From Lachnospiraceae bacterium (GTDB lineage: Bacteria; Bacillota; Clostridia; Lachnospirales; Lachnospiraceae), in contig JAUNGD010000031.1 of assembly GCA_030524705.1 (NCBI GenBank), forward strand, positions 1 through 40,152: DNA of 40,152 bases. Reading direction: 5' to 3'. The position numbers and the translations under genes are program-made. The notes under the pieces are model-generated. The model was not told where the DNA came from, ran no database searches, and saw nothing but the letters and a program-made list of their open reading frames with translations. Shown here in pieces: positions 10,476 to 23,452 of this stretch (position 1 is the first letter of the stretch; every line of letters starts with the position of its first letter).

Positions 10476-10500
10476 CACAGGAATGGTAAGGAGGACTGCG

Positions 10501-12567
10501 ATGAAATACAGGATAATCACCGGAATCATAGGCGCTTCAATGATCATGGCCGCACTGTCCGGCTGTGAGTCTGCTGACCATACGAAGGAGACGGAACTCC
10601 AGACGCTGGAAATCGTTGACATGGAAATTCTGGATGAGTCCGGTACGGAAATAGAGTCAGATTCTGAGATGGTTACGGAGCCGGAGACTGTGGCAATGGA
10701 GATTGATCTGGCAGATAAGTCAGTTTCATCTTCAGCCGGGACGGATAATTCCATAGTGACAGAAACGGAGCAGGATACGGAGACTGAGACCGAGGCTGAA
10801 ACCGTCCAGACCAGGGTAAGCCAGGCTCAGAAGCCGGGGGAAGCGGAGGACGCAGAGCAAACCGAAAAGAGCTCAGAAGCGAAGACCAAGAAACAGACGG
10901 AAAAAGCTGCGGAGTCGGAGGGGCAGAAGCAGACCGGAAAGACAGCAGTATCCGGGACACAGCGGCAGACCGAAAAGGCTGCAGAATCAGAGCCGCAGGA
11001 ATCGGCAGAGCCGGGTGCAGAAACAGAAACCCGGAAAGAGACGGAGAAGGCTGCGGAGTCGGAATCTGAGCTGGCAGAGTCAAAGACTGAAGATCAGAAG
11101 GGGACAGCTGCGGAATCTGAGCAGGCAGATGCAGAGACGGAGACAGAGGAACAGACAGGAACAGCTGTGGAATCTGAGCAAGCGGATACAGAGACGGAGA
11201 CAGAGGAGTCAACAGAAGCTAAGGCAGAAATCAGTATTATGGTTATTAATGATCGGGTCAATGTCCGCACAGAGCCATCGACCGACTCCGATATTGCAGC
11301 GCTGCTGACCTGCGGCATGCAGGTGGTGAATGTAGATTCTGATGGAGAATGGTCCAAGATCCGCTATGAGACGGAAACTGGCTTTGCAGATGGCTACGTG
11401 AAGAGTGAATTCTTAAGCCCTCTTGATGCAGTATACATAGCGAAGGAGAAAGTAAATATTCGTGAAGAAGCTTCCACGGAGTCAAATAAGATAGGTGAGC
11501 TGCAGACCGGAGACCGTGTGATTCTGGAAAAGGAACTGGATAATGGCTGGTCGCAGGTTCGTTTCATGATTGGTGATGAAGTGAAAACGGTTTACGTGAA
11601 AACTGAATTTTTAGAGCAGACGGATGCGGAGGATGAATCATTTGCTGTGGAGCTGAAGCGTATTATGGCAGAAGCTGAAACTGAGCCGGAATCCGCGGCG
11701 GAGGTTGAGTCGGAGACTGAAACGGAGTCTGAGTCAGAAATAGGAAATGCAGTGGATACAGAGGCTGAAGCCGTGACAGAGACAGAAACGAAGGCTGCAG
11801 CAGAGGAAGAAAGCGAGACGGAGGCTGTAACAGAATCTGAAACAGAGACCGAGACGGAAGCTATAACAGAATCTGAAACGGAGGCCGAGACAGGAGTAGC
11901 AACCGAGCCGGAAGCTGCAGCAACAGAAGCTGAAGCGGAGACCGAGACAGGAGCTGCAACCGAGACGGAGGCTGTAACAGAGACAGAAACAGAAGCCGCA
12001 ATAAATACAGGAGCTGAAGCGGTAACAGAGGCTGGCACAGAAGCAGGGGCTGTAGCGACAGAATCTGAAACAGAAAACGGTACAGAAGCTGAAACTGAAT
12101 CCGAGACAGAGGCTGTAACCCTGTCTGAGGGCGCAAAAGGTCAGTTTGAGCTGGTGAAAATGCTGTTCCCGGAGGTACAGTCTGTGGGCATCATCTATTC
12201 CGCAGATAATAAGGCTTCGGAAAAACAGCTGTCTTCTTACAATGAGCTGGCTTCTGAGTTTGGGATGAGTGTGACTGCCTCTGAAATAGAGGAAGCGATT
12301 GACATTGACCTTGCGGCGTCTGAGCTTGTCGGTTCTGTGGACTGTATTTTCTGTATAGACGACGCGACGGTGACGCCGCTGGTGCAGACGATCCGGGCTT
12401 ACGCAGATGAGGTGGAGATACCGGTAATCGGTATCAATGAGTCTCATGTGGAGCAGGGATGCGTTGCTGCATATCTGGAGGGTAGTCTTCATCTGAATCA
12501 GGAAGAAGCCGGGAAGTTTGGCCTGGATGTGTCCGGGATGAATTTTGGAGAAATTACGGAGTATTAA
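10501..12567 (+). CDS. Lipoprotein with two SH3b domains, Glu/Thr repeats and an ABC_sub_bind-like C-terminus
   Basis: The ATG at 10501 follows AAGGAGG and opens a lipoprotein signal peptide with lipobox LSGC (Cys22), so the protein should be anchored outside the membrane. Residues about 82-242 are acidic low-complexity sequence (ETETEAE, QTEKAAESE). Two bacterial SH3 domains follow: residues about 243-308 (VNVRTEPSTDSDIAALLTCGMQ) and 310-373 (VNIREEASTESNKIGELQTGD), a type that often binds peptidoglycan. A second Glu/Thr-rich stretch (about 387-542) leads to residues 544-688, which resemble one lobe of the tryptophan/sugar-type ABC substrate-binding family (LVKMLFPEVQSVGIIYSADNKASEKQ; PVIGINESHVEQGCVAAY). 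Function is unknown; a wall-attached sensor or scaffold is possible. Confidence 0.8.
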   Translation: MKYRIITGIIGASMIMAALSGCESADHTKETELQTLEIVDMEILDESGTEIESDSEMVTEPETVAMEIDLADKSVSSSAGTDNSIVTETEQDTETETEAETVQTRVSQAQKPGEAEDAEQTEKSSEAKTKKQTEKAAESEGQKQTGKTAVSGTQRQTEKAAESEPQESAEPGAETETRKETEKAAESESELAESKTEDQKGTAAESEQADAETETEEQTGTAVESEQADTETETEESTEAKAEISIMVINDRVNVRTEPSTDSDIAALLTCGMQVVNVDSDGEWSKIRYETETGFADGYVKSEFLSPLDAVYIAKEKVNIREEASTESNKIGELQTGDRVILEKELDNGWSQVRFMIGDEVKTVYVKTEFLEQTDAEDESFAVELKRIMAEAETEPESAAEVESETETESESEIGNAVDTEAEAVTETETKAAAEEESETEAVTESETETETEAITESETEAETGVATEPEAAATEAEAETETGAATETEAVTETETEAAINTGAEAVTEAGTEAGAVATESETENGTEAETESETEAVTLSEGAKGQFELVKMLFPEVQSVGIIYSADNKASEKQLSSYNELASEFGMSVTASEIEEAIDIDLAASELVGSVDCIFCIDDATVTPLVQTIRAYADEVEIPVIGINESHVEQGCVAAYLEGSLHLNQEEAGKFGLDVSGMNFGEITEY

Positions 12568-12593
12568 AACGGTTGATTTTGGATGGTGTTGTT

Positions 12594-13919
12594 ATGGATG
12601 AGTTTTATAGAGAATCAGAAAGCTTACTGCGTTTTATAGAAAAAAGTCCCAGCTGCTTTCATGTGGTGAAAAATGCGGCGAGTCAGCTGGCGCAAAAAGG
12701 GTTTGAGAGACTCTGGGAGAATCAGAAATGGGATCTCAGGCCCGGCGGAGCTTACTATGTGACGAGAAACGGCTCTTCTCTCATAGCCTTCCGCATACCG
12801 GAGCAGCCCTTTGAAGGCTTTCAACTGGTCTGCAGCCACACGGATTCACCGACCTTTAAGGTGAAAATGAACCCGGAGATGGAGGCAGACAAAAAGTATA
12901 CAAAACTGAATGTGGAGAAATACGGGGGGATGCTGTGTGCGCCCTGGTTTGACCGTCCGCTTTCCGTGGCGGGGCGTATTTTGGTGCGCTCCGGGAATGA
13001 GATCCGCCAGGAGCTGGTGAACGTGGACAGGGATCTTCTGATGATCCCCAACGTGGCTATCCACATGAACCGTACTGTCAATGAAGGCTATGCATACAAT
13101 GCCCAGGTGGATCTGTGCCCTGTGTTTGGGGACGAACAGGCAATGAACACCTTTGATGCGCTGATCGCAGAGACCGCCGGGATTCAGAAGGAGCAGATTC
13201 TGGGAACGGATTTGTTCTTGTATAACCGTCAGAAGGGAACCTTCTGGGGAAGTGCGGAGGAATTTATCGCAAGTCCGAGACTGGATGACCTGCAGTGCCT
13301 GTATGCATCGCTTCAGGGCTTTCTTGCAGCGGAGCAGCCGGAAAATGCGGCGGTGTTCTGCGCCTTTGATAATGAGGAAACCGGAAGCGTATCAAGACAG
13401 GGCGCCGCATCCACATTTCTTCAGGATACTCTGAAAAGGATTAACTATGCTCTGGGAAATTCTGAGGAGGATTATCTGAGGCTGACGGCGGGCAGCTTTA
13501 TGCTTTCAGCGGACAATGCGCATGCCGTACATCCGAATCATCAGGAGATGGCGGATCCGGTGAACCGGCCGCAGATGAATCATGGAATTGTCATTAAATA
13601 TAATGCGAATCAGAAATATACAACAGACGGTGTGAGCGCCGCAGTGTTCGGCAGTTTGTGCAAGCAGGCGGAGGTACCGTTCCAGACCTTTACGAACCGT
13701 TCCGATATGGCAGGAGGTTCGACGCTGGGCAACATTTCCAATACGCAGGTGTCCATGCGGTGTGTGGATATCGGCCTGGCGCAGCTTGCAATGCATTCTC
13801 CGTATGAAATGGCTGGAGGGAAGGATGCGCTTTATCTGAAAAGGGTATCGGAGCTGTTTTACCGCACGATGCTGCGGGTTACTGAGGATGGGATTGCTGA
13901 GGTTTGTGCGAAGTATTAA
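12594..13919 (+). CDS. apeB: M18 family aminopeptidase
   Basis: M18 aminopeptidases are dinuclear zinc exopeptidases that remove N-terminal, often acidic, residues from peptides in the cytoplasm. Family motifs are present in order: VCSHTDSPTFKVKMNPE (metal His/Asp), DRPLSVAGR, SPRLDDLQC, CAFDNEETGS (catalytic/metal acidic pair), SADNAHAVHPNHQE and the closing SPYEMAGGKD (HSPYE motif). The ATG at 12594 (MDEFYRESESLLRFIEKSPSCFHVV) fits the family; a TTG at 12573 would add seven residues. Length 441 aa is typical. It follows the lipoprotein gene by only 26 nt and ends before a strong terminator, so the two may share a transcript. The symbol is by family. Confidence 0.93.
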   Translation: MDEFYRESESLLRFIEKSPSCFHVVKNAASQLAQKGFERLWENQKWDLRPGGAYYVTRNGSSLIAFRIPEQPFEGFQLVCSHTDSPTFKVKMNPEMEADKKYTKLNVEKYGGMLCAPWFDRPLSVAGRILVRSGNEIRQELVNVDRDLLMIPNVAIHMNRTVNEGYAYNAQVDLCPVFGDEQAMNTFDALIAETAGIQKEQILGTDLFLYNRQKGTFWGSAEEFIASPRLDDLQCLYASLQGFLAAEQPENAAVFCAFDNEETGSVSRQGAASTFLQDTLKRINYALGNSEEDYLRLTAGSFMLSADNAHAVHPNHQEMADPVNRPQMNHGIVIKYNANQKYTTDGVSAAVFGSLCKQAEVPFQTFTNRSDMAGGSTLGNISNTQVSMRCVDIGLAQLAMHSPYEMAGGKDALYLKRVSELFYRTMLRVTEDGIAEVCAKY

Positions 13920-14073: not shown

Positions 14074-14139
14074 TTGATATTCTTTGTCGATATGGTATAT
14101 TATAATGTAAATGCATATACATAAGAATGCAAATACATA
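14074..14139 (+). promoter_or_regulatory. Upstream promoter and operator cluster of the GntR operon
   Basis: TTGATA (14074-14079), 16 nt and TATATT (14096-14101) form a plausible promoter. Immediately downstream lie three relatives of the palindrome AATGTA-NN-TACATT: AATGTAAATGCATA (14104-14117), AATGCATATACATA (14110-14123, overlapping the first) and AATGCAAATACATA (14126-14139). The first and third are 22 bp apart, two helical turns. HutC-type GntR proteins commonly bind AT-rich palindromes of this kind. Confidence 0.55.
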
Positions 14140-14253
14140 TTATAAAGACGAATTTCGAAAAAACAAAAAATATGTAGAAAGATGGGGGAAAATAGAATGA
14201 AATTTGAATAAGATATAAAAATTTTCACACATTAATTTTTAATACAGAGCAAT

Positions 14254-14339
14254 AATGTATTTACAAACATGATTTTAAATGGGAAAAATGTATTGACAAA
14301 CTAAAAAACAAGTAGTATTATTTTAAATGTAAATACATT
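14254..14339 (+). promoter_or_regulatory. Main GntR-operon promoter with overlapping operators
   Basis: A near-perfect sigma-A promoter: TTGACA (14293-14298), 17 nt, TATTAT (14316-14321). A perfect 6-2-6 palindrome AATGTAAATACATT (14326-14339) covers the expected start of transcription. A weaker copy AATGTATTGACAAA (14287-14300) overlaps the -35 box, and another AATGTATTTACAAA (14254-14267) lies upstream. The layout predicts autorepression by the adjacent GntR protein. Confidence 0.7.
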
Positions 14340-14365
14340 ATGTGCTTGAGAGGGAGCACAATATT

Positions 14366-15934
14366 ATGAAGAATACAAATCAATCTACATATATGAGAAT
14401 CCATTATGAAATAGCAAATGAAATTGCTATGGGGGTATATAAAGCAGGTGATCTGCTGCCGACACATACGGAGCTATCGGAGAAATACCATGTCAGCCGG
14501 GTTACGATAAGCGAAGCAATTAAGGAGCTGTCCCGCAGGGGGATCTTAAGGACACAAAAGGGTAAAGGAACTTATGTGGTCGGTCAACCTATGGAGATTG
14601 GAAATTTTCAGCGGTTTGAGGGATTTTCTAAGTTCTCAAATCAGAATAAAGACAGAAGGCTCACCAGCAGAGTGATTTTTAATGACATTGTCGAAGCGCC
14701 TGTAGGGGTAGCGGAATTGCTTGGAATCCCGGCGAATACATTGATGGTAAATATCATCAGGGTACGTTCGGTTGATAATATTCCAATGTCCTATGAATCT
14801 TCTTTTTTGAAACATTCCTATGTTGGGGAAATTGATTTTAAAAAAGAAAATCTGGAAACAGGATCGCTGTACGCTGTACTGAGAGAAAAAGCAGGAATAA
14901 ATTTTAAATATTCAAAAGAAAAGCTGCGTGCAACTTATTGTCCGGACAATGTCTGCAGTTTTTTGGGTGTCGGGCGTATGGAGCCTATTCTTTTTATTAA
15001 CAGAGTTTGCGGCATTGATGAGGATGAACTGGTTGAATGCGTGGAAATATATGAGAGAAGCGATATTTCGTATACTTCTTTTCAGTCCAGCAGGCAGGTG
15101 GAAGAGAAAACGGAAGTGAATCGAAAGGTATTTTCGGCAGCGCAGGAGACCAAAAATAAAATAGCAGATTCTATGATCGGTGGTTTGCTGGCAAATGAAC
15201 TTTTTGATGATGATGTCAAAGAGAAGGGGCTGTTTGGTGAATGGTTAGAAAAATATATGTCTATGGCTGATAAGATGAATGCCGTCCATGCTGCTGAACC
15301 ATCTTTGTTAGAAAAAGAAGCAGATGATTTTTATATGGCTATTCTTTCTGGAATTGTAAATACTCCGGAAGAGGCGGTGAAAAAAACTGCTGAAGTTCTG
15401 ATCAGCAGAAAACGGAGCAGATCAGCTGTTTCGGCCGGATGTGCGCTGTCTGCTATGATGTCTGCCTGTATGAAAAGGGATACAAGTTCCGCCGAATTGT
15501 CTGATAGGGCTATAAAAGCGGCGGTAGAAGGCAATGCACTCTCTGAGTCAGCGGGACTTAAAGAAATGACAGTCAATGTTGCAAAAAGGATAAAACTGGC
15601 CCTGTCCCTGACAAAAGGGGCAGAGGATTATGAACAGGTAATGCGGGATTACTGTGACATTTGGGGATGGTGTAAGGAGATAGAGAATACTGTGCCTGCT
15701 GTGCTGTGTCTGTTGGTTGCGGCTGGATTTGATTATCCATCGGCGATGAAGAAGGCAAAGAAGCTTTTGCCAAATCGGATGGCTGCGGTTCTTTTTGGCC
15801 TGTTATCCGGGGCACTATATTCAAGATCGACATTTCCGGAGGAGCTGGTAAGTCTGATTTTGGAAAATGTATCGAAATGTGACCAGATGGCAGAAATTGC
15901 TTCGGAAACGAGAAAATCCATAGCTGCAAAATGA
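14366..15934 (+). CDS. GntR/HutC regulator with extra C-terminal ADP-ribosylglycohydrolase-like domain
   Basis: Residues 8-75 are a winged-helix GntR DNA-binding domain (GDLLPTHTELSEKYHVSRVTISEAIKELSRRGILRTQKGKGTYVV); residues about 85-240 are a UTRA effector domain. HutC regulators normally stop near 240 aa, but this protein runs to 522. The remainder (about 260-500) is helical and resembles the ADP-ribosylglycohydrolase fold: KIADSMIGGLLANELFDD at its start and NTVPAVLCLLVAAGFDYPSAMKK...LFGLLSGALYSRSTFPEELV at its end. The catalytic metal motif of that family (GGDTDT) is replaced by KKLLPNRMA, and no TDDT-type motif is visible, so it is probably a non-catalytic ligand sensor. The ATG at 14366 follows AGAGGGAG; an in-frame GTG is at 14342. 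First gene of the importer operon. Confidence 0.88.
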   Translation: MKNTNQSTYMRIHYEIANEIAMGVYKAGDLLPTHTELSEKYHVSRVTISEAIKELSRRGILRTQKGKGTYVVGQPMEIGNFQRFEGFSKFSNQNKDRRLTSRVIFNDIVEAPVGVAELLGIPANTLMVNIIRVRSVDNIPMSYESSFLKHSYVGEIDFKKENLETGSLYAVLREKAGINFKYSKEKLRATYCPDNVCSFLGVGRMEPILFINRVCGIDEDELVECVEIYERSDISYTSFQSSRQVEEKTEVNRKVFSAAQETKNKIADSMIGGLLANELFDDDVKEKGLFGEWLEKYMSMADKMNAVHAAEPSLLEKEADDFYMAILSGIVNTPEEAVKKTAEVLISRKRSRSAVSAGCALSAMMSACMKRDTSSAELSDRAIKAAVEGNALSESAGLKEMTVNVAKRIKLALSLTKGAEDYEQVMRDYCDIWGWCKEIENTVPAVLCLLVAAGFDYPSAMKKAKKLLPNRMAAVLFGLLSGALYSRSTFPEELVSLILENVSKCDQMAEIASETRKSIAAK

Positions 15935-15981
15935 CCGAACACTTATCCTGGCTGCTGCTTGAGAAATGAAGATACTTATGT

Positions 15982-16011
15982 TTGTAACAGCATGGGCTGA
16001 TTACATATAAA
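15982..16011 (+). promoter_or_regulatory. Possible internal promoter before the BMP gene
   Basis: TTGTAA (15982-15987), 18 nt and TATAAA (16006-16011) precede the AAGGAGG of the binding-protein gene. The match is moderate and no operator palindrome is seen here. The 102-nt gap shows no terminator. Confidence 0.35.
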
Positions 16012-16036
16012 ATAATATCTTAAAAGGAGGAACAAA

Positions 16037-17029
16037 ATGAAAAAGAATGTATTTGGCTGGGGTGTTGTGACAGCAATTGCTGTCTCAATTATGAGTATCA
16101 CTACTGTTCCGGTGGCGGCAGAGGAAGGTGGGAAAACTTGTCTGATTTCTACAATCTCGCAGGGAACGCCTTTTGCACAGTTAGTATGGAGTGGATTTGA
16201 GACTGCACAGGAAAACTACGGGGTGGATATTAAAATGATAGAGGCCCTGGATAATGCGGAATACGAAGAGCAAATCCGTGCGATGGCAGAAATGGGCTAT
16301 AATCCAATTTATACGATGTTTGATGCATTGAATGCATACGTTGTGGATATTGCTCCGGAATATCCTGATATTGATTTTTACATGATCGACAGTGCGCTTG
16401 AGCCGCAGTCGGACAATGTGTGCAGTCTGGTAGTTGACCCGACTGAGTCTTCATTTGTAGCTGGATTTGTAGCTGCAAAGACGACGCAGACAGGTAAAAT
16501 TGGCTGGATCGGCAGTCTTGAGCAGGCTAATATTCTCCGTTTCCGCGACGGATATACGGCGGGTGCAAGATATACGGATCCGGATATTGAAATTTTAACC
16601 TCTTTTACCGGAGATAATACAGACTCCGTAAAAGGACAGGAAGCAGCTAAAATTCTGATTAATGATGGTGTAGATGTAATTTTTCAGTCGGCAAATCTTT
16701 CCGGCCTGGGTGTAATTACAGCCTGTGCGGAAGCAGGTATTAAAGCGATTGGCGTCGATGAGTGGCAGGGCGATATTGATGATTGCGTTTTTTGGTCTTC
16801 CCTGAAGGATATTGATAGTGCAGTCGTACAGACTATTGGAGAGTATCTGGATGGCGAATTCGAAAGCGGATTCAGATATTTTACGCTGGAGACGGGGGCC
16901 CGCGCTTATGATGAGAGGGATTATGAAAAGCTTTCGCCGGAGCTGAAGGAAGAACTGGATGAACTGGTTGAAAAGGTTATCTCCGGAGAAATTGTTGTGG
17001 CTGATCTGGTAGCGGATGCGGCAGAATAG
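16037..17029 (+). CDS. BMP-family ABC transporter substrate-binding protein (nucleoside-type)
   Basis: BMP-family proteins (PnrA/TmpC type) capture purine nucleosides or related ligands for ABC import. The product is 330 aa with an N-terminal hydrophobic signal (residues 1-28) and the BMP pattern: ISTISQGTPFAQLVWSGFETAQENYG, DFYMIDSALEPQSDNVCSLVVDPTESSFVAGFVAAKTTQTGKIGWIGSL, FRDGYTAGARYTDPD and IGVDEWQGD. No lipobox Cys is present at the end of the signal (VPVAAEE), unlike most Gram-positive binding proteins, so it may be secreted free or held otherwise. AAAGGAGG precedes the ATG. A terminator hairpin follows, which should make this the most abundant product of the operon. Exact ligand is unknown. 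Confidence 0.88.
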   Translation: MKKNVFGWGVVTAIAVSIMSITTVPVAAEEGGKTCLISTISQGTPFAQLVWSGFETAQENYGVDIKMIEALDNAEYEEQIRAMAEMGYNPIYTMFDALNAYVVDIAPEYPDIDFYMIDSALEPQSDNVCSLVVDPTESSFVAGFVAAKTTQTGKIGWIGSLEQANILRFRDGYTAGARYTDPDIEILTSFTGDNTDSVKGQEAAKILINDGVDVIFQSANLSGLGVITACAEAGIKAIGVDEWQGDIDDCVFWSSLKDIDSAVVQTIGEYLDGEFESGFRYFTLETGARAYDERDYEKLSPELKEELDELVEKVISGEIVVADLVADAAE

Positions 17030-17068
17030 AGTGAGATTGTAGGAACGTGTATTTTTTTAGTACATCCT

Positions 17069-17099
17069 AAGGGCGGGAGTTCAGCTCTCGCCCTTTTTG
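17069..17099 (+). terminator. Intra-operon terminator/attenuator after the binding-protein gene
   Basis: AAGGGCGGGAG (17069-17079) pairs with CTCTCGCCCTT (one G-U pair) across TTCAG, followed by TTTTTG. It sits between the binding protein and the ATPase, the classic place for partial termination that raises binding protein over membrane components. Confidence 0.8.
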
Positions 17100-17140
17100 T
17101 CTAAAAAAATGCATAAAGATTGATTAAATGGAGAAAAACT

Positions 17141-18664
17141 ATGGCTTCAGAAACAATTTTGGAATTAAAACATATTACAAAACGGTTTGGAAAACTGGTT
17201 GCAAACGACGATATCAGTTTCAAATTGAAAAGAGGAACGGTACATGCAATTATAGGGGAAAACGGAGCCGGTAAAAGTACACTTATGAATATTCTGACAG
17301 ATATTTATAAAGCAGATAGCGGAGATATCTATCTGAATGGTGAGAAGGTTATTTTTAAAGATCCCATGGATGCGTGTAAACATGGGATTGGAATGGTATA
17401 CCAGGAGTTTATGCTGTTTAACAGTCTTACTGTTCTGGAAAATATTATTATGGGATTTGAAAAGAAAAAAAGAGGTCTTATTGATACAAGGGCAAACCGT
17501 AAAGCAGTAGAAGAAATCTGCAACAAGTACGGATTTGTTCTCCCGCTGGATGCTTGTGTAAAGGATCTTCCAGTATCCCTCTTACAGCAGGTGGAAATTG
17601 TTAAGATTCTGTACAGGGGAGCTGAAATTCTGATATTAGATGAGCCTACTTCAATTCTTACACCGCAGGGGATTGAAGGATTGTTTAAGGCAATCCGCTT
17701 TCTTGTACAATCAGGTAAAACAGTGATTTTTATTACCCATAAATTAAAAGAAGTTCTTGCGATTGCAGATGCAATTACGGTTTTGAGAAATGGAAAACTG
17801 ATTGCAGATATACGGCCGGAAGATGCAAATGAAGAAAAGCTGGCTAATCTGATGGTAGGGCGGGATGTTTTGCTCAGAGTAAAAAAAGAGGAAAAGAAAA
17901 TCGGGAATCCGGTATTATCGGTAAAAAATCTGAGCGTAAAGGACAGCGATGGCAATGTCAGAGTAAAAGACGTGAATTTTGAGGTTCGCGCAGGGGAGAT
18001 TGTCGGAATTGCGGGGGTTGCGAATTCGGGACAGAAAGAATTGATAGAATCTCTTTATGGATTGTGTATTCCGGAAAAAGGAGCAGAGATATATCTGGAG
18101 GAAAAAGAGATCACCCATTTTTCATGTCGGGAGAGAAGATGCAGTGGGATTGGATACGTGCCTCAGGACAGGCTCCATGATGGTGTGAACTCAGGTGCTG
18201 AGTTGTGGGAAAGCGCAATTATGGGGTACCATATTGCCCATGGCTTTAAAAATTCTGTAATGCTTGATTACGATGATATTAATATGTTCTCAAAAAAAAT
18301 CATTGAAGAATATGCTGTTAAAACACCGAATCAGCATGCCATTGTCGGAACTCTTTCAGGAGGCAATATTCAGAAGCTGATTGTCGGGAGGGAGTTTTCA
18401 CAGGAAAACCGACTGCTGATTATAGAAGATCCTACGAGAGGAATTGATATTGGTGCAATAGAATTTATCTGGAAAAAAATTATCAGTCTGGCCGCTTCCG
18501 GAGTAGGGATCCTTTTGGTCAGCCATGAGTTGAATGAGGTGATGGAGCTGTCAGATCATATACTGGTGATGTACAACGGAAAATTGTATGATGGCGGTCA
18601 TTCAGGGGAACTCACTGAAGAGAAAATTGGCTATCTGATGATGGGAGGTGCACATGATGCGTGA
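17141..18664 (+). CDS. Double-domain ABC ATPase of nucleoside/sugar importer
   Basis: This ATPase energises the BMP-type importer. Two nucleotide-binding domains lie in tandem. The first has Walker A GENGAGKST, Q-loop VYQEF, Walker B ILILDEPTS and H-loop ITHK. The signature region is degenerate (LPVSLLQQVEIVKIL instead of LSGGQ). The second has a degenerate P-loop (GVANSGQKE), an intact signature LSGGNIQKLIVGRE, Walker B LLIIEDPTRGID and VSHE. This asymmetry is normal for the YufO/RbsA-type family. The length of 508 aa is typical. The ATG at 17141 follows GGAG; the upstream in-frame TTG at 17120 is less likely. The 3' end overlaps the permease gene. Confidence 0.93.
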   Translation: MASETILELKHITKRFGKLVANDDISFKLKRGTVHAIIGENGAGKSTLMNILTDIYKADSGDIYLNGEKVIFKDPMDACKHGIGMVYQEFMLFNSLTVLENIIMGFEKKKRGLIDTRANRKAVEEICNKYGFVLPLDACVKDLPVSLLQQVEIVKILYRGAEILILDEPTSILTPQGIEGLFKAIRFLVQSGKTVIFITHKLKEVLAIADAITVLRNGKLIADIRPEDANEEKLANLMVGRDVLLRVKKEEKKIGNPVLSVKNLSVKDSDGNVRVKDVNFEVRAGEIVGIAGVANSGQKELIESLYGLCIPEKGAEIYLEEKEITHFSCRERRCSGIGYVPQDRLHDGVNSGAELWESAIMGYHIAHGFKNSVMLDYDDINMFSKKIIEEYAVKTPNQHAIVGTLSGGNIQKLIVGREFSQENRLLIIEDPTRGIDIGAIEFIWKKIISLAASGVGILLVSHELNEVMELSDHILVMYNGKLYDGGHSGELTEEKIGYLMMGGAHDA

Positions 18665-19748
18665 TAAACGGTGGAGCAGAGATCACATTGCTGAGATAAC
18701 AAAGTATGCATTGTCTTTTGCAGCGGTTATGCTGATTGGTGCGGTACTCATTGGAATCCAGGGAGAAAATCCGGTCACAGCGATTGCGGCAATTTTTCAG
18801 GGTTCCCTGGGCAGCGGAAAAGCAATCGGAAATTCAATTCGATGGAGTATTCCATGTGTATTGAGTGGAATATCGGCAGCGGTTGCATTTAAATCGGGGG
18901 TTAATAATCTTGGAATAGAAGGGCAAATGTATTGTGGCGCACTTTGCGCTGCTATGGTTGGGTATATGATTCATCTTCCGGCAGGGATTCATGTAGCTGT
19001 TTCGATTCTTGCAGGTGCTGTCGCCGGGCTTTTGTACGCGCTGATTCCCGCTTTGATGAGAATGTTTTTAAAAATCAATGAAATGGTTGTTACGTTGATG
19101 ATGAATTATATAGCAGTTTTGGCGACGGAATATATTACGATTCGTCTGATTAGCCTTTCTGCGGTGGCCAATCCCCTGTCTGTAGAAACTCCGGTGATTG
19201 ATGAAAGCGCGGCGCTTCCTGTTCTTCTTGCAGGAACAAAGGCGAACGCAGGTATTTTTATTGCAGTTCTTACAGTTGTGGTAATTGCATGGGTATATAA
19301 ATATACGATTAAAGGATATGAACTGAAACAGGTAGGAGAGAATCCTCATTTCTCTAAAATAGGAGGGATCAATGTTAAAAAAACTTTTGCTTCTATTTTT
19401 CTGATTTCAGGTTTTATTGGAGGAATGTGCGGAGCAGTCGAGGTTACCGGAGCATATAAAAAATTTACGGCAAGTTTTGCAGGAACTCTTGGCTGGGATG
19501 GCATAATGATAGCGAGAATTGCAAAGAATAAGCCTTTTGCTGTCCTGGTGGTTTCTTTTTTATGGGGAATTTTAAAAGCGGGATCGCTGCAAATGGAGAG
19601 GGTTACAAATATAAACAGGCTTACCGTTACACTGATACAGGCGATTTTTGTTCTTTTTATTACAGTGGATTATGAGAAGGTTTTTGAGCTCTTTTCTTCG
19701 AGGAAAAAGAAACGGGTTGCTGTGGAAGGAGGAAAGGCGCATGTTTAA
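18654..19748 (+). CDS. ABC permease, nucleoside/sugar importer (YufP-like)
   Basis: First of two permeases of the BMP-type importer. The product of about 365 aa is strongly hydrophobic with about nine to ten membrane segments. Family features are GIQGENPVTAIAAIFQGSLGS, the block AFKSGVNNLGIEGQMYCGALCAA and MNYIAVLATEYI; the cytoplasmic coupling region is KGYELKQVGENPHFSKIGGINVKKT. GGGAGG precedes ATGs at 18654 and 18657; either may be used. The start overlaps the ATPase stop by 11 nt and the end overlaps the next permease by 8 nt. Confidence 0.92.
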   Translation: MMRDKRWSRDHIAEITKYALSFAAVMLIGAVLIGIQGENPVTAIAAIFQGSLGSGKAIGNSIRWSIPCVLSGISAAVAFKSGVNNLGIEGQMYCGALCAAMVGYMIHLPAGIHVAVSILAGAVAGLLYALIPALMRMFLKINEMVVTLMMNYIAVLATEYITIRLISLSAVANPLSVETPVIDESAALPVLLAGTKANAGIFIAVLTVVVIAWVYKYTIKGYELKQVGENPHFSKIGGINVKKTFASIFLISGFIGGMCGAVEVTGAYKKFTASFAGTLGWDGIMIARIAKNKPFAVLVVSFLWGILKAGSLQMERVTNINRLTVTLIQAIFVLFITVDYEKVFELFSSRKKKRVAVEGGKAHV

Positions 19749-20652
19749 AATATTGTTTGGTACTATCACTTTTTCTGCTATGCTGCGAATGTCCGCTCCA
19801 TTGATTTTGTCTGCGGTAGGGGGTTCTTTTAATAACAGAGCAGGAACATTAAATATTGCACATGAAGCAATCATGTTGATCGGTGCGTTTTTCGCTGTAT
19901 ACGGATCTTATTTAACTTCGAATCCCTGGATAGGTCTTTTGGTGGCAATAGGAGTATGTTTGATTGTTTCAGTGATTTATGGAGTTTTTGTTTTCCATAT
20001 CGGGAGTAATCCCATGGTGGTAAGTATTGCGTTGAATACGGGAGCCGGAGGTTTCACTGCATTGGTGTTGTATTCGTTATTCAGAATAAGGGGGTCTCTG
20101 GTGGATTCGAGGATTAAGAGCTTTTCGGTGATTGACATTCCGTTTATAAAAAACATTCCCTGGTTGGGAAAAATTGTGAGCGGACAGATCGCGTTAGTTT
20201 ACATTGCATTTCTTTTTGCGGCAATAGCCTGGATTGTAATGTACAGAACCACTTTCGGGCTGCATATACGGGCGGTCGGGATGAATCCCAAGGCGGCGCA
20301 GACTGCCGGAATTTCTATTTTAAAATATAAGTGGATTGCGAATATTATCTGTGGAATTGCGGATGGTGCGGCGGGAGCTTTTCTTCCGCTTTGCGGTATT
20401 TCCATGTTTACAGAGGACATGTCTTCTGGACGCGGATTTTTGGCGGTCGCTGCCATTTTGATCGGACAGGGAAATCCGATAAAGGTTATGTTGTCCTGTC
20501 TGCTGTTTGGGTATGCTGAGGCGCTGACTGTAAGTCTTCAAAATATTAATATACCATCGCAGATTGTGCTGATGCTGCCATACGTGGCGACTGTTTTTGT
20601 TTTGCTGGTTTCGGGCATAAGAAATTTAAAAACACAAAAAGATGTTTTGTAA
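19741..20652 (+). CDS. ABC permease, nucleoside/sugar importer (YufQ-like)
   Basis: Second permease of the importer, 303 aa. The start at 19741 has AAGGAGG 8 nt upstream; the frame is open to 19648 but that part belongs to the previous gene. It begins FSAMLRMSAPLILSAVGGSFNNRAGTLNIAHEAIMLIGAF, which matches the family pattern (N-rxG-xxNIAxEG-xMLxGA). The coupling loop is FGLHIRAVGMNPKAAQTAGISILKYK. About eight membrane segments. The two permeases likely form the heterodimeric channel. Confidence 0.92.
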   Translation: MFKILFGTITFSAMLRMSAPLILSAVGGSFNNRAGTLNIAHEAIMLIGAFFAVYGSYLTSNPWIGLLVAIGVCLIVSVIYGVFVFHIGSNPMVVSIALNTGAGGFTALVLYSLFRIRGSLVDSRIKSFSVIDIPFIKNIPWLGKIVSGQIALVYIAFLFAAIAWIVMYRTTFGLHIRAVGMNPKAAQTAGISILKYKWIANIICGIADGAAGAFLPLCGISMFTEDMSSGRGFLAVAAILIGQGNPIKVMLSCLLFGYAEALTVSLQNINIPSQIVLMLPYVATVFVLLVSGIRNLKTQKDVL

Positions 20653-20666
20653 AAGGAAGGTAGGAA

Positions 20667-21692
20667 ATGGAAAGTTCAACAATCATAATGACAGAAGAGT
20701 CTACAAGAATCCGGAATTATTTGACAAAAGAAGGGGCAGAGCATTTTGATGATATTTATTTTAAAAGAAAGCTTGGTGCTACTGCAAATATACGGTCCCT
20801 CGGAGGAATGTACAAAGACGTGGCAGCCCAGGGAGCCCGGCGGGGATCTGAATCCTCCAAAGTAATAGATGAAATTTTGGATATTACAGCCTTTTTCAGA
20901 AGACTGCGTGGAGATTCCAGTGTGGCGATTGCAACGGCGATGGATATTCTTACCGGGGATATCGAAAAATTCCGTACATATCCAATCGGGGAAACAGCCG
21001 CGTATATTGAAAAAGTGAATGAGGCTTATGAGGAAGAGGCTTCCAGCTGGGAAAAGGTAATTAAAAATTATGCATATGAAATTATCAAGGATAAAAACTC
21101 GATGCTTTTGTATGATTATTCCAGTCTCGTGGGAGATGTGATTAAAGAAGCCTCCAGAGAGAATCATGTGATGGATCTTTATATTCCTGAAAGCCGTTTT
21201 CTGAACGGAGGCCTTCCTTTTGTAAGGGATGGGATACAGGGAAAGCACCGGGTACATTTTTTCCCGGATGCAGCGATTATGTATTACATGAAAAAGGCAG
21301 ATTTGGCAATGATGGGAGCAGAGACCTTTTTGCCGAACGGAGATATGATCAATACAATTGGCTCCGAGCTTGTCGGTATTGCATGCCGGCGGTATGAAAA
21401 ACCTCTGTATATTCCGACAACATTAATTAAGGTAGATTACAGGGCTACGTATGGCATCAGAAGAAAGGAGCTTTTCAGGGATCTGAAGGATAAAATGTCG
21501 GAAGGGTGGGAGATAAAACTGAAGGACGAGGTGGATTTTGCATGTCCCAATCTTGATATTGTTCCTCCGGAAAATATCACGGCTTATATTACGGAAAGAG
21601 GTGTGATCCCACCTGCCGCGTTATTCAGTGAATGCAGATCCTATGTTGGTGATCTGCGTAACAAAATTTATAATCGAATCAATTACAGATAA
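20667..21692 (+). CDS. eIF2B/MtnA/R15P-isomerase superfamily protein with non-canonical active site
   Basis: The 341-aa product has the superfamily layout: an N-terminal helical domain (RSLGGMYKDVAAQGARRGSESSKVIDEILDI) and a C-terminal Rossmann-like domain. The signature is GAETFLPNGDMINTIGS (residues 217-233). In the isomerases (MtnA, ribose-1,5-bisphosphate isomerase) this reads GAD and the Asp is catalytic, with a catalytic Cys in an earlier loop. Here Asp is Glu and the loop reads LLYDYSSLVGDV without Cys, which is closer to eIF2B regulatory subunits. It may bind a sugar phosphate or nucleotide rather than isomerise it, or use different residues. RBS AAGGAAGG. Neighbours (importer, kinase) point to phosphorylated pentose chemistry. 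Confidence 0.75.
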   Translation: MESSTIIMTEESTRIRNYLTKEGAEHFDDIYFKRKLGATANIRSLGGMYKDVAAQGARRGSESSKVIDEILDITAFFRRLRGDSSVAIATAMDILTGDIEKFRTYPIGETAAYIEKVNEAYEEEASSWEKVIKNYAYEIIKDKNSMLLYDYSSLVGDVIKEASRENHVMDLYIPESRFLNGGLPFVRDGIQGKHRVHFFPDAAIMYYMKKADLAMMGAETFLPNGDMINTIGSELVGIACRRYEKPLYIPTTLIKVDYRATYGIRRKELFRDLKDKMSEGWEIKLKDEVDFACPNLDIVPPENITAYITERGVIPPAALFSECRSYVGDLRNKIYNRINYR

Positions 21693-21707
21693 CAAAGGAG
21701 AGGCGCA

Positions 21708-22523
21708 ATGAGATCGATAAAAGCTTTATATAATGTCAGTAAACCAGTTATTGGAATGGCGGAGCCGCTGGCACTTCCTGGCAGTTATGCTTATTCTGGA
21801 GAAAGTGTAACAGAGATTACGGATAAACTTTTAAAAGAGGTAGAGGAATATGCAAAGGGGAATTTTGAGGGCGTGATACTGCAGAACATGCAGGATACTC
21901 CGATACGCCAAAATTCCAGTTTCGAAGCGGTTGCTTATATGACACATCTTAGTGAAGCGGTAAGAAGAGAATTTCCACATATGGTACAGGGAATTTTAAT
22001 CAACTGGGATGGCTGTGCTTCTCTTGCTGTAGCAGAGGCTGCAAGTGCAGATTTTATACGGATTGAACATTGCTATGTAGGTGCGGAGGTAACGACGAGC
22101 GGAATTATTAATGCACAGTGTGTTGAAATTTTGCAGATGAAGAAGCTAATGGGATCAGATATGCCAATTATTCCTGATATTTACGAACCGCATGCGGCAG
22201 CAATCTTTCCAAGACCAATCGAAAGTATGGTTTTTTCTGCAATTACACAGGGGCATATTGACGGAATGTTTTTGAGCGGACACAGCGCAGAAGAGACCAT
22301 TGAAATGGGAAAAAAGGCGAGAAAGGTAGCCGGCAAATTCGGAGGCAGGGACATTATTGCCGGCGGTGGTACAAACGATACGAACATCTATGAGATCCTG
22401 AAAGTATTCGATGGGGTATGTATCGGACACTGGATCAAGGATGGTTATCTGGGCAACCCGATTAATCCGGAAAAACTGAAAAGATATATGGATGAAGTAG
22501 AGCGCGCGAGGAGTGAGGGATGA
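21708..22523 (+). CDS. BtpA/SgcQ family TIM-barrel protein
   Basis: The BtpA/SgcQ family is a TIM-barrel group of poorly known function, named for a cyanobacterial photosystem I factor but widespread in heterotrophs next to sugar kinases and transporters. Motifs in the 271-aa product: KPVIGMAEPLALPGS at the start, GVILQNMQDTPIRQ, GILINWDGCASLAVAEAASADFIRIEHCYVGAEVTTSGII, PIIPDIYEPHAA and the C-terminal phosphate-binding-like IAGGGTND...DGVCIGHWIKDG. Compared with the usual NVLRND and GTSLK versions, the loops here read LINWDG and GHWIK, so this may be a separate subfamily. RBS AAAGGAGAGG. Its end overlaps the kinase gene by 4 nt (ATGA), indicating coupled translation. An aldolase or nucleoside-cleaving role is conceivable but unproven. 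Confidence 0.8.
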   Translation: MRSIKALYNVSKPVIGMAEPLALPGSYAYSGESVTEITDKLLKEVEEYAKGNFEGVILQNMQDTPIRQNSSFEAVAYMTHLSEAVRREFPHMVQGILINWDGCASLAVAEAASADFIRIEHCYVGAEVTTSGIINAQCVEILQMKKLMGSDMPIIPDIYEPHAAAIFPRPIESMVFSAITQGHIDGMFLSGHSAEETIEMGKKARKVAGKFGGRDIIAGGGTNDTNIYEILKVFDGVCIGHWIKDGYLGNPINPEKLKRYMDEVERARSEG

Positions 22524-23452
22524 AGACGTTGGATATCATAGGAATCGGAGACGCTTCTATGGACATTTTGGTGTCGGTGGACAGGCTTCCGGCACATGAC
22601 GATAAAGTAAAAGGAAAAATTCTCGGTAAATATCCGGGAGGTATTATTTCAAACTTCCTGTGTGCTGCTGCAAAGTTCGGGGCGTCCTGTGGCGGAATAA
22701 TTTGTGTGGGCAACGATGATTACGGAAAAACCGCACTTGCAGAGCTTCAGTCATATGGTATAGATACCAGCAGATGCGTTATACACAATGACGATACTTA
22801 TTTTACCATTACATGTCTGGATGATTCCGGCGAAAAAAGCATGTTGATCTGTATGAACCAAACGACACAGCCAATAATTTCAGAGATTGATTTTTCCTAC
22901 CTGGATCAGGCCGAATTTGTGCATATGATCGGTACTTACAGTGATCTGGTGCGAAAGGTTGGCCGCTATGTCCGGGAAAAGGATATCAGGCTGTCAGTTG
23001 ATATCGAACGCCAGGCGTTTACGATTCCGTTAGAAGAGAGAATGGAAATCTGTTCTTTGGCATTTGTTGCATTTCCAAATGAAGAAGGGATCAGCTATTT
23101 TACGGGATGTGACCAGATTGCAGAAGCAGCTGCGAAAATGCTGGAATGGGGAACAAAAATCGTTGTTGTTACAAGAGGCAGTAATGGCGTTGATGTATTT
23201 ACCAAGGATACTTATTTTCATGTTCCGGCAATTCCAGTCCTGGCAAAAGATACGACGGGAGCCGGAGATACATTCAACGCTTGTTTTTTGAGCTGTCTGG
23301 TTAAGGGCTATGCATTGGAACAATGTGCATGGCTGGCAACGGCTTCTGCGGCTTGCCAGATACAGAAAATAGGGGCAAGAACAGGTATGGTGAGTGAGGA
23401 GGAGGCGCTTCATTTTTTGAATGCTGAGGGAGTTGAGATAACATGTATTTAG
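22520..23452 (+). CDS. PfkB/ribokinase-family carbohydrate or nucleoside kinase
   Basis: PfkB-family kinases phosphorylate sugars, sugar phosphates or nucleosides. The 310-aa product has the N-terminal signature GIGDASMDILVSVDRLP, the substrate-contact segment GKYPGGIISNFLCAAAKFGA (the GG pair), the nucleotide region VVVTRGSNGV and the C-terminal PfkB signature DTTGAGDTFNACF (residues 244-256) with the catalytic Asp at 250. The start overlaps the BtpA stop. Position at the end of a nucleoside-type importer operon suggests ribose, ribose-1-phosphate or a nucleoside as substrate; sequence alone cannot decide. No clear terminator is seen in the 71 nt before the next gene. Confidence 0.92.
   Translation: MKTLDIIGIGDASMDILVSVDRLPAHDDKVKGKILGKYPGGIISNFLCAAAKFGASCGGIICVGNDDYGKTALAELQSYGIDTSRCVIHNDDTYFTITCLDDSGEKSMLICMNQTTQPIISEIDFSYLDQAEFVHMIGTYSDLVRKVGRYVREKDIRLSVDIERQAFTIPLEERMEICSLAFVAFPNEEGISYFTGCDQIAEAAAKMLEWGTKIVVVTRGSNGVDVFTKDTYFHVPAIPVLAKDTTGAGDTFNACFLSCLVKGYALEQCAWLATASAACQIQKIGARTGMVSEEEALHFLNAEGVEITCI

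Follow-up and report, generated by a model that had tools for sequence, protein, structure and literature searches.

What does an operon do in which genes for an ABC importer of the BMP type are followed by genes for an eIF2B-like protein, a BtpA-family protein and a PfkB-family kinase? This operon lies in a 40,152-nucleotide contig of a Lachnospiraceae bacterium (JAUNGD010000031.1, our G000:C122), which was analysed as a whole and is called the window here; the genome (3.87 Mb in 145 contigs) is 88% complete. Eight + strand open reading frames (ORFs) occupy positions 14366-23452, and neighbours overlap or are separated by short gaps. The ORF list and the Pfam families found (GntR plus UTRA, Bmp, ABC_tran, two BPD_transp_2, IF-2B, BtpA, PfkB) confirmed what a reading made earlier from the DNA letters alone (the sequence-only reading) had said of gene order, direction and families. 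On balance, the operon probably serves inducible uptake and catabolism of a sugar conjugate (in the form seen here probably a nucleoside or another riboside), and the gene set is best read as a modular phosphosugar pathway, undescribed so far, with the eIF2B-like protein and BtpA at its core. The genes are:

14366-15934, + strand: GntR-UTRA regulator with a C-terminal, degenerate ADP-ribosylglycohydrolase (ARH)-like domain (Pfam and alignment; ATG at 14366 is the likely start, by inspection)
16037-17029, + strand: BMP/PnrA-type substrate-binding protein (PF02608, 1.5e-47)
17141-18664, + strand: ABC importer ATPase with two ABC_tran stretches (Pfam; start at ATG 17141 by inspection)
18648-19748, + strand: ABC importer permease 1 (Pfam BPD_transp_2)
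19741-20652, + strand: ABC importer permease 2 (Pfam BPD_transp_2; start at ATG 19741 by inspection)
20667-21692, + strand: eIF2B-like protein, fold of ribose-1,5-bisphosphate (R15P) isomerase, altered active site (D150, E219; S152 and K255 kept)
21708-22523, + strand: BtpA/SgcQ-family TIM barrel, core partner of the eIF2B-like protein
22520-23452, + strand: PfkB-family sugar/nucleoside kinase

The neighbourhoods of eIF2B-like genes were surveyed with the window protein and three relatives as queries. One scan of the genome collection yielded 48 loci; removal of two duplicates (L053 and L059, on the same contigs as L013 and L014) and addition of the window, L013 and L014 gave the 49 loci compared below, L015 being left out (same contig as L042). 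They come mainly from Bacillota, with two from Caldilineaceae and two from Trueperaceae. The loci are not independent (L018 and L019 belong to one species; L023, L024 and L025 have identical eIF2B-like proteins), and several end early at contig ends. The names DeoC, DeoR, MFS, ECF, HPr, EIIA and NifH-like, and that of the second ARH gene in L100, were assigned by eye from translations.

A BtpA gene directly adjoined the eIF2B-like gene, with gaps of about 100 bases or less, in 47 of the 49 loci, a degree of conservation that rules out chance clustering. In the two Trueperaceae loci BtpA precedes the eIF2B-like gene and, judged by its residues, is canonical; the pairing, as far as sequence types go, is thus not confined to one type of BtpA. 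Across 33 Bacillota loci the distances among BtpA proteins correlated with those among eIF2B-like proteins (r=0.91, relatedness not removed), as expected of a pair inherited together. The subfamily is rare, because the five matches found besides the own genome in a phylum sample of 398 genomes were all MtnA/R15Pi-like and lacked the DYSS motif; it was present in 6 of 397 genomes of the family sample, and in the class sample 9 of 196 genomes matched at E<=1e-10, only G258 strongly (own genome included in both counts). No paper on the eIF2B-like/BtpA pair was found in a literature search that had most subscription journals outside its reach. The set, which the sequence-only reading had put forward as a candidate undescribed system, is thus real but uncharacterised in bacteria, where the jobs of both core families are largely unknown.

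Some loci show further copies or relatives. Fragments of broken second eIF2B-like copies follow the intact pair in L033 (12720-14013) and L030 (12616-13032), and in L033 BtpA too has a broken second copy there. In L066, from a same-phylum genome, an MtnA/R15Pi-like gene keeping Asp and Lys (GAD...NK) adjoins a pseudouridine-phosphate-glycosidase-like gene (by eye).

The genes that accompany the pair vary. Within 9 kb of the eIF2B-like gene in the available DNA, a mannose-family phosphotransferase system (PTS), searched by its EIIB component, was found in 28 of the 49 loci and PfkB in 17, and no locus had both. Of the three metabolic genes that the sequence-only reading had grouped together, the eIF2B-like and BtpA genes therefore stand as a conserved set and PfkB does not. 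A PTS phosphorylates its sugar on entry, yielding a monophosphate. The simplest reading is therefore that the PTS and the importer plus PfkB are alternative routes to a monophosphate that feeds the same downstream proteins. Since the uptake and phosphorylation modules interchange, the eIF2B-like protein and BtpA form the core and probably act on a monophosphate. When the eIF2B-like proteins were placed on a quick tree, the distribution of PfkB and PTS required 4 changes, at least 3 of them forced by starred branches.

The kinase passed the Pfam cut-off (PF00294, 162.6 vs 25.8 bits) and stayed below those of the archaeal ribose-1-phosphate kinase models (NF041134, 113.2 vs 500 bits; NF053626, 104.4 vs 330 bits) and of ribokinase (TIGR02152, 132.3 vs 299.65 bits). 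PfkB itself points to no substrate, because the kinases of the surveyed loci split into two sets by identity to that of the window (about 38-50% and 25-30%). Amidohydro_2 genes were present in all 28 PTS loci (two or more in 27) and in none of the 17 PfkB loci, and an AllA-like cupin gene in six of the PfkB loci but in none with a PTS; Pfam was used to check one member of each group, Amidohydro_2 and cupin. Because these genes track the two forms, side chemistry or substrate may differ between them.

The eIF2B-like protein passed the cut-off of Pfam PF01008 (IF-2B/MtnA superfamily). Its fold agrees and is nearest to R15P isomerase, while the S-methyl-5-thioribose-1-phosphate isomerase models were not reached (TIGR00524, 67.6 vs 185.85 bits; TIGR00512, 44.5 vs 279 bits). 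An alignment (A3) of 38 of the 49 proteins was compared with the archaeal R15P isomerases (PH0208 and the Thermococcus kodakarensis enzyme R15Pi; 5yfj, 3vm6). In all 38 the catalytic Cys (135 in PH0208) is Asp, the catalytic Asp204 is Glu, and three of the four side chains that bind the 1-phosphate (Arg22, Gln166 and Lys215) are replaced, in agreement with the altered active site noticed earlier. Both 5-phosphate side chains, Ser137 and Lys240, are kept in all 38. By these residues the protein is not an R15P isomerase, and unlike the archaeal enzyme it occurs with BtpA and often with a PTS. The pocket recalls that of human eIF2B-alpha, which binds 5'/6'-sugar monophosphates: Tyr, Glu, Asn and Lys of the sugar-phosphate pocket are shared, as matched by residue spacing. 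It differs in having Asp at the place of Ala129 and Ser at that of Arg132, and in belonging to a bacterial protein from a catabolic-type operon. These proteins form a branch of the eIF2B/R15P-isomerase superfamily in bacteria whose two catalytic residues have changed and whose pocket resembles that of eIF2B-alpha, which bears on the origin of the eukaryotic sugar-phosphate sensor.

To our knowledge no paper deals with the biochemical function of BtpA, a widespread family. The window protein passed Pfam PF03437 (154.4 vs 30 bits) and just missed NCBIfam TIGR00259 (150.2 vs 153.4 bits). A sequence search found no solved relative, only weak partial profile matches (best E=1.2e-4). The predicted structure is a TIM barrel (pLDDT 95.1) of apparently phosphosugar type, which suits the earlier proposal that BtpA could supply a cleavage step. 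Many structural matches were tied at the top, among them 3-hexulose-6-phosphate synthase, 2-keto-3-deoxy-6-phosphogalactonate/2-keto-3-deoxy-6-phosphogluconate (KDPGal/KDPG) aldolase, thiamine-phosphate synthase, dihydropteroate synthase (DHPS) and HisF. With so many barrels tied, the structure comparison does not point to one reaction. In an alignment (A2) of 34 Bacillota BtpA proteins linked to eIF2B-like genes and five others (L061 and L062, also linked, among these five), the 34 are set apart by Gln59, Trp100 and Glu160. In the five others position 59 is Glu or Ser, Trp100 occurs once and Glu160 never; all 39 share N60, D185, N226, D235, K244 and G246.

Canonical BtpA was sampled in eight plasmid-borne loci, from 40 listed of 190 matching records. 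A sugar kinase was annotated nearby in seven of the eight (none in L085): PfkB, ribokinase or 'carbohydrate kinase' in L081, L082, L083, L084 and L088, and FGGY in L086 and L087. In E. coli, the BtpA-family gene sgcQ stands with a PTS in the sgc operon according to annotation; no eIF2B-like gene is annotated there, and SgcQ shares 23% identity with the BtpA of the window, whose Gln59 and Glu160 it lacks. The kinases near canonical BtpA and the PTS operon of sgcQ agree with action of BtpA on phosphorylated sugars. Linking BtpA with a single close partner of the eIF2B family, and with a sugar that a PTS or a kinase monophosphorylates, would give a short list of testable substrates for both proteins.

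Rhizobium contributed 108 of the 190 records. In the plasmid-borne clusters L081-L084 a glutamine amidotransferase and PfkB/ribokinase were annotated in all four, ABC importer genes in four, a phosphotriesterase family in three and TenA in two (Pfam PF07090 and PTE checked on L082 only). In L054 (14015-18594), a few kb after the eIF2B-like/BtpA pair, there are a second mannose-family PTS set and a second, canonical-type BtpA, the latter 31% identical and on the opposite strand.

In the scheme we propose, the GntR protein would use its UTRA and ARH-like domains to sense the compound, or the phosphorylated form of it, and would release an operator array, and the BMP-type importer would bring the compound in. 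PfkB would add one phosphate at the 5' (or 6') hydroxyl. The eIF2B-like protein would bind the monophosphate by the kept 5-phosphate site and work at C1/C2, an Asp/Glu pair replacing the Cys/Asp of R15P isomerase, and BtpA, a phosphate-type TIM barrel, would perform the following cleavage or rearrangement. In other bacteria the mannose-family PTS would combine uptake and phosphorylation in one step, making PfkB unnecessary.

Several observations weigh against this scheme. BtpA is not always the partner, as it was not found in the two Caldilineaceae loci (L060, L063). Neither PTS nor PfkB was found in four of the 49 loci: L030 and L033, which have HPr- and EIIA-like genes (clusters c22 and c33, named by eye), and the Trueperaceae loci L061 and L062, which have ABC importer genes and a SIS-domain match. 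The tree contains long, possibly misplaced branches, L014, L056 and the window among them. One of the four 1-phosphate ligands, Arg65, is kept (as R81) in all 38 aligned proteins. Finally, the substrate class is read from neighbouring genes and may differ between loci, as the distribution of Amidohydro_2 genes suggests.

Other explanations have to be considered. It is conceivable, if doubtful, that the substrate is a hexose glycosylamine or an Amadori-type compound, PfkB resembling fructosamine kinase and the pair removing the amine; this idea shares the core with, and is compatible with, the preferred explanation. The mannose-family PTS in 28 loci would fit it, as would SIS-domain matches in L014, L016 and L060-L063 (Pfam SIS for L014 and L016; L014 GlmS-like, below cut-off) and a gene of the glucosamine-6-phosphate-isomerase/6-phosphogluconolactonase family in L021, L027 and L031 (Pfam run on L027 only), whereas the window version, with its BMP importer and its ARH and nucleoside-phosphorylase-like neighbours, argues against it. 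Alternatively, the eIF2B-like protein could be a non-catalytic sensor of a 5'/6'-sugar phosphate that activates BtpA or organises it, in the manner of eIF2B-alpha in eIF2B, where sugar phosphates are activators. The similar pocket, the close pairing and the correlated divergence would be compatible with such a role; we regard it as unlikely, since the catalytic Cys position holds Asp where eIF2B-alpha has Ala and the Asp position holds Glu, an acid/base-like pair constant in all 38 proteins, and since eIF2B-like genes occur without BtpA in L060 and L063.

For the preferred phosphosugar pathway, one particular chemistry can be offered as a speculation. The eIF2B-like protein and BtpA may be a new way to break a C1-substituted phosphoglycoside, e.g. 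a nucleoside 5'-phosphate: the Asp/Glu version of the R15P-isomerase fold would open and isomerise the sugar at C1/C2 (Amadori-type), and BtpA would then release the base or aglycone, or cleave the sugar. The pair would stand in for ADP-ribosylglycohydrolase behind a like importer and kinase in sister operons. A known relative is E. coli yegTUV, whose putative sugar kinase we take to be of the PfkB family. As far as the available part of the source goes, that system shares with the window a GntR regulator (GgaR, also YegW), a nucleoside-type transporter, an ARH and a putative sugar kinase, but has the ARH enzyme instead of eIF2B-like/BtpA (PMC10819704).

The pentose bisphosphate pathway, to which the sequence-only reading had drawn an analogy, is represented in haloarchaea by a non-carboxylating form, where, in the part of the source available, PfkB genes share operons with R15P isomerase homologues in a nucleoside context, with phosphorylase genes in six of eight cases (PMC9700705). 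A bacterial version, in which PfkB makes R15P from ribose-1-phosphate, the eIF2B-like protein isomerises it to ribulose-1,5-bisphosphate and BtpA cleaves the product, is ruled out as the main explanation by the active-site residues and the replacement of PfkB by a PTS in 28 loci and is very improbable altogether, despite the scores on the ribose-1-phosphate kinase models, the R15P-isomerase-like fold and these operons, from which the window differs also in its BtpA partner and in that the family scan found no phosphorylase or ribulose-1-phosphate aldolase family among the eight genes.

The substrate-binding protein passed Pfam Bmp (162.5 vs 24.1 bits), and its nearest solved chains by sequence are Lbp (7x0r), BmpA (9q1u) and TmpC (2fqw). 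The best NCBIfam models of the importer are named 'putative B6 ABC transporter'; all four scored below cut-off (79.3 vs 400, 431.8 vs 670, 125.7 vs 400 and 158.6 vs 465 bits), and vitamin B6 transport was not adopted. As a conserved partner of the core, BMP did not hold up: a match lay within 9 kb in 5 of the 49 loci and was joined to the core in three (the window, L016 and L017), which have importer plus core in common, while the matches of L018 and L019 lie far from the core, on the opposite strand. Directly after PfkB, L017 has an ARH gene (11722-12765; TDDF, GNDTDT). Besides the window's own, 4 of 250 family genomes had BMP proteins at E<=1e-60. BMP relatives are near ARH and PfkB genes in L098 and L107, and on the short contig L106 one stands beside a methylthioadenosine (MTA)-phosphorylase-like gene (221.7 bits, below the cut-off of 274.85) and a HAD-phosphatase-like gene. 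In L108 (8901-17695) genes judged by eye to be NifH-like and nitrogenase-like come after the BMP-type importer genes, as does a PfkB-like gene, and L014 has a uridine-phosphorylase-like gene (247.8 bits, below the cut-off of 280.3). Because importer kin adjoin ARH/PfkB or MTA-phosphorylase-like genes, the substrate of the BMP form may fairly be guessed to be a nucleoside or another riboside. The nearest solved relatives and these neighbours bear out the assignment of the importer to a nucleoside-type family. In L100 (6900-12730) a TrpA-like barrel and two ARH genes, one of which was checked with Pfam, lie next to mannose-family PTS genes; ARH also occurs alongside a PTS.

When the whole GntR protein was scanned, its ARH part gave no Pfam match; the C-terminal part alone matched PF03747 weakly (E=9e-4; 19.4 bits, below the cut-off of 26.2). 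It resembles ARH genes in 4 other genomes of 250 in the family (best E=3.7e-11, 27% identity, query residues 87-254). Pfam assigned two of the matched genes to ARH (7e-54, 1.1e-44), and the gene with the best match shares 53% identity with a third Pfam-scanned ARH. This similarity upholds the earlier GntR-ARH call, with the addition that the domain is degenerate. Aligned with six ARHs it keeps DDF of TDDF (ADDF aligned to TDDF) and lacks about 60 residues after DDF and the GxD[TS]DT motif present in all six; in the GntR protein of L017, likewise degenerate, both motifs are missing. Because GxD[TS]DT and the 60 residues are gone, the domain is probably a sensor. A parallel to the BMP form is E. 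coli yegTUV together with its GntR repressor; the effector is reported to be ADP-glucose, and the available part of the source states the functions of the yegTUV genes as unclear (PMC10819704).

Candidate regulatory elements of the operon are:

14105-14338, no strand: candidate operator array, six ATGTAWWTACAT-like palindromes (up to 2 mismatches allowed) at 14105, 14111, 14127, 14255, 14288 and 14327
14293-14321, + strand: best promoter-like site, TTGACA-17-TATTAT (consensus match; class not above shuffles, 24 sites vs 22.9)
17069-17095, + strand: internal terminator-like hairpin after the BMP gene, 12-pair stem (class: 15 found vs 7.2 expected)

The regulated promoter region and internal terminator described earlier are thus recognisable, the promoter-like site lying amid the palindromes. 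One palindrome is perfect (14327-14338) and lies just downstream of the promoter-like site; two overlap. The 40-kb window has 16 such sites vs 5.6 expected. None was found in the whole of L017 or in the scanned regulator regions of L098, L097 and L107, and L016 has three, none preceding a GntR gene found there; conservation of the operator is not supported. A terminator-like hairpin 3' of the binding-protein gene is a usual arrangement. The operon looks accessory, because its GC content (0.39-0.43 over 14-22 kb) differs from that upstream (0.47-0.54) and over 22-28 kb (0.46-0.47), and because one same-genus genome sampled had no match to the eIF2B-like or BMP protein at the thresholds used. 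Upstream, at 10483-12567, the window has an ORF that looks, by eye, lipoprotein-like, in which a very long low-complexity stretch rich in Glu and Thr is combined with a substrate-binding-like C-terminus.

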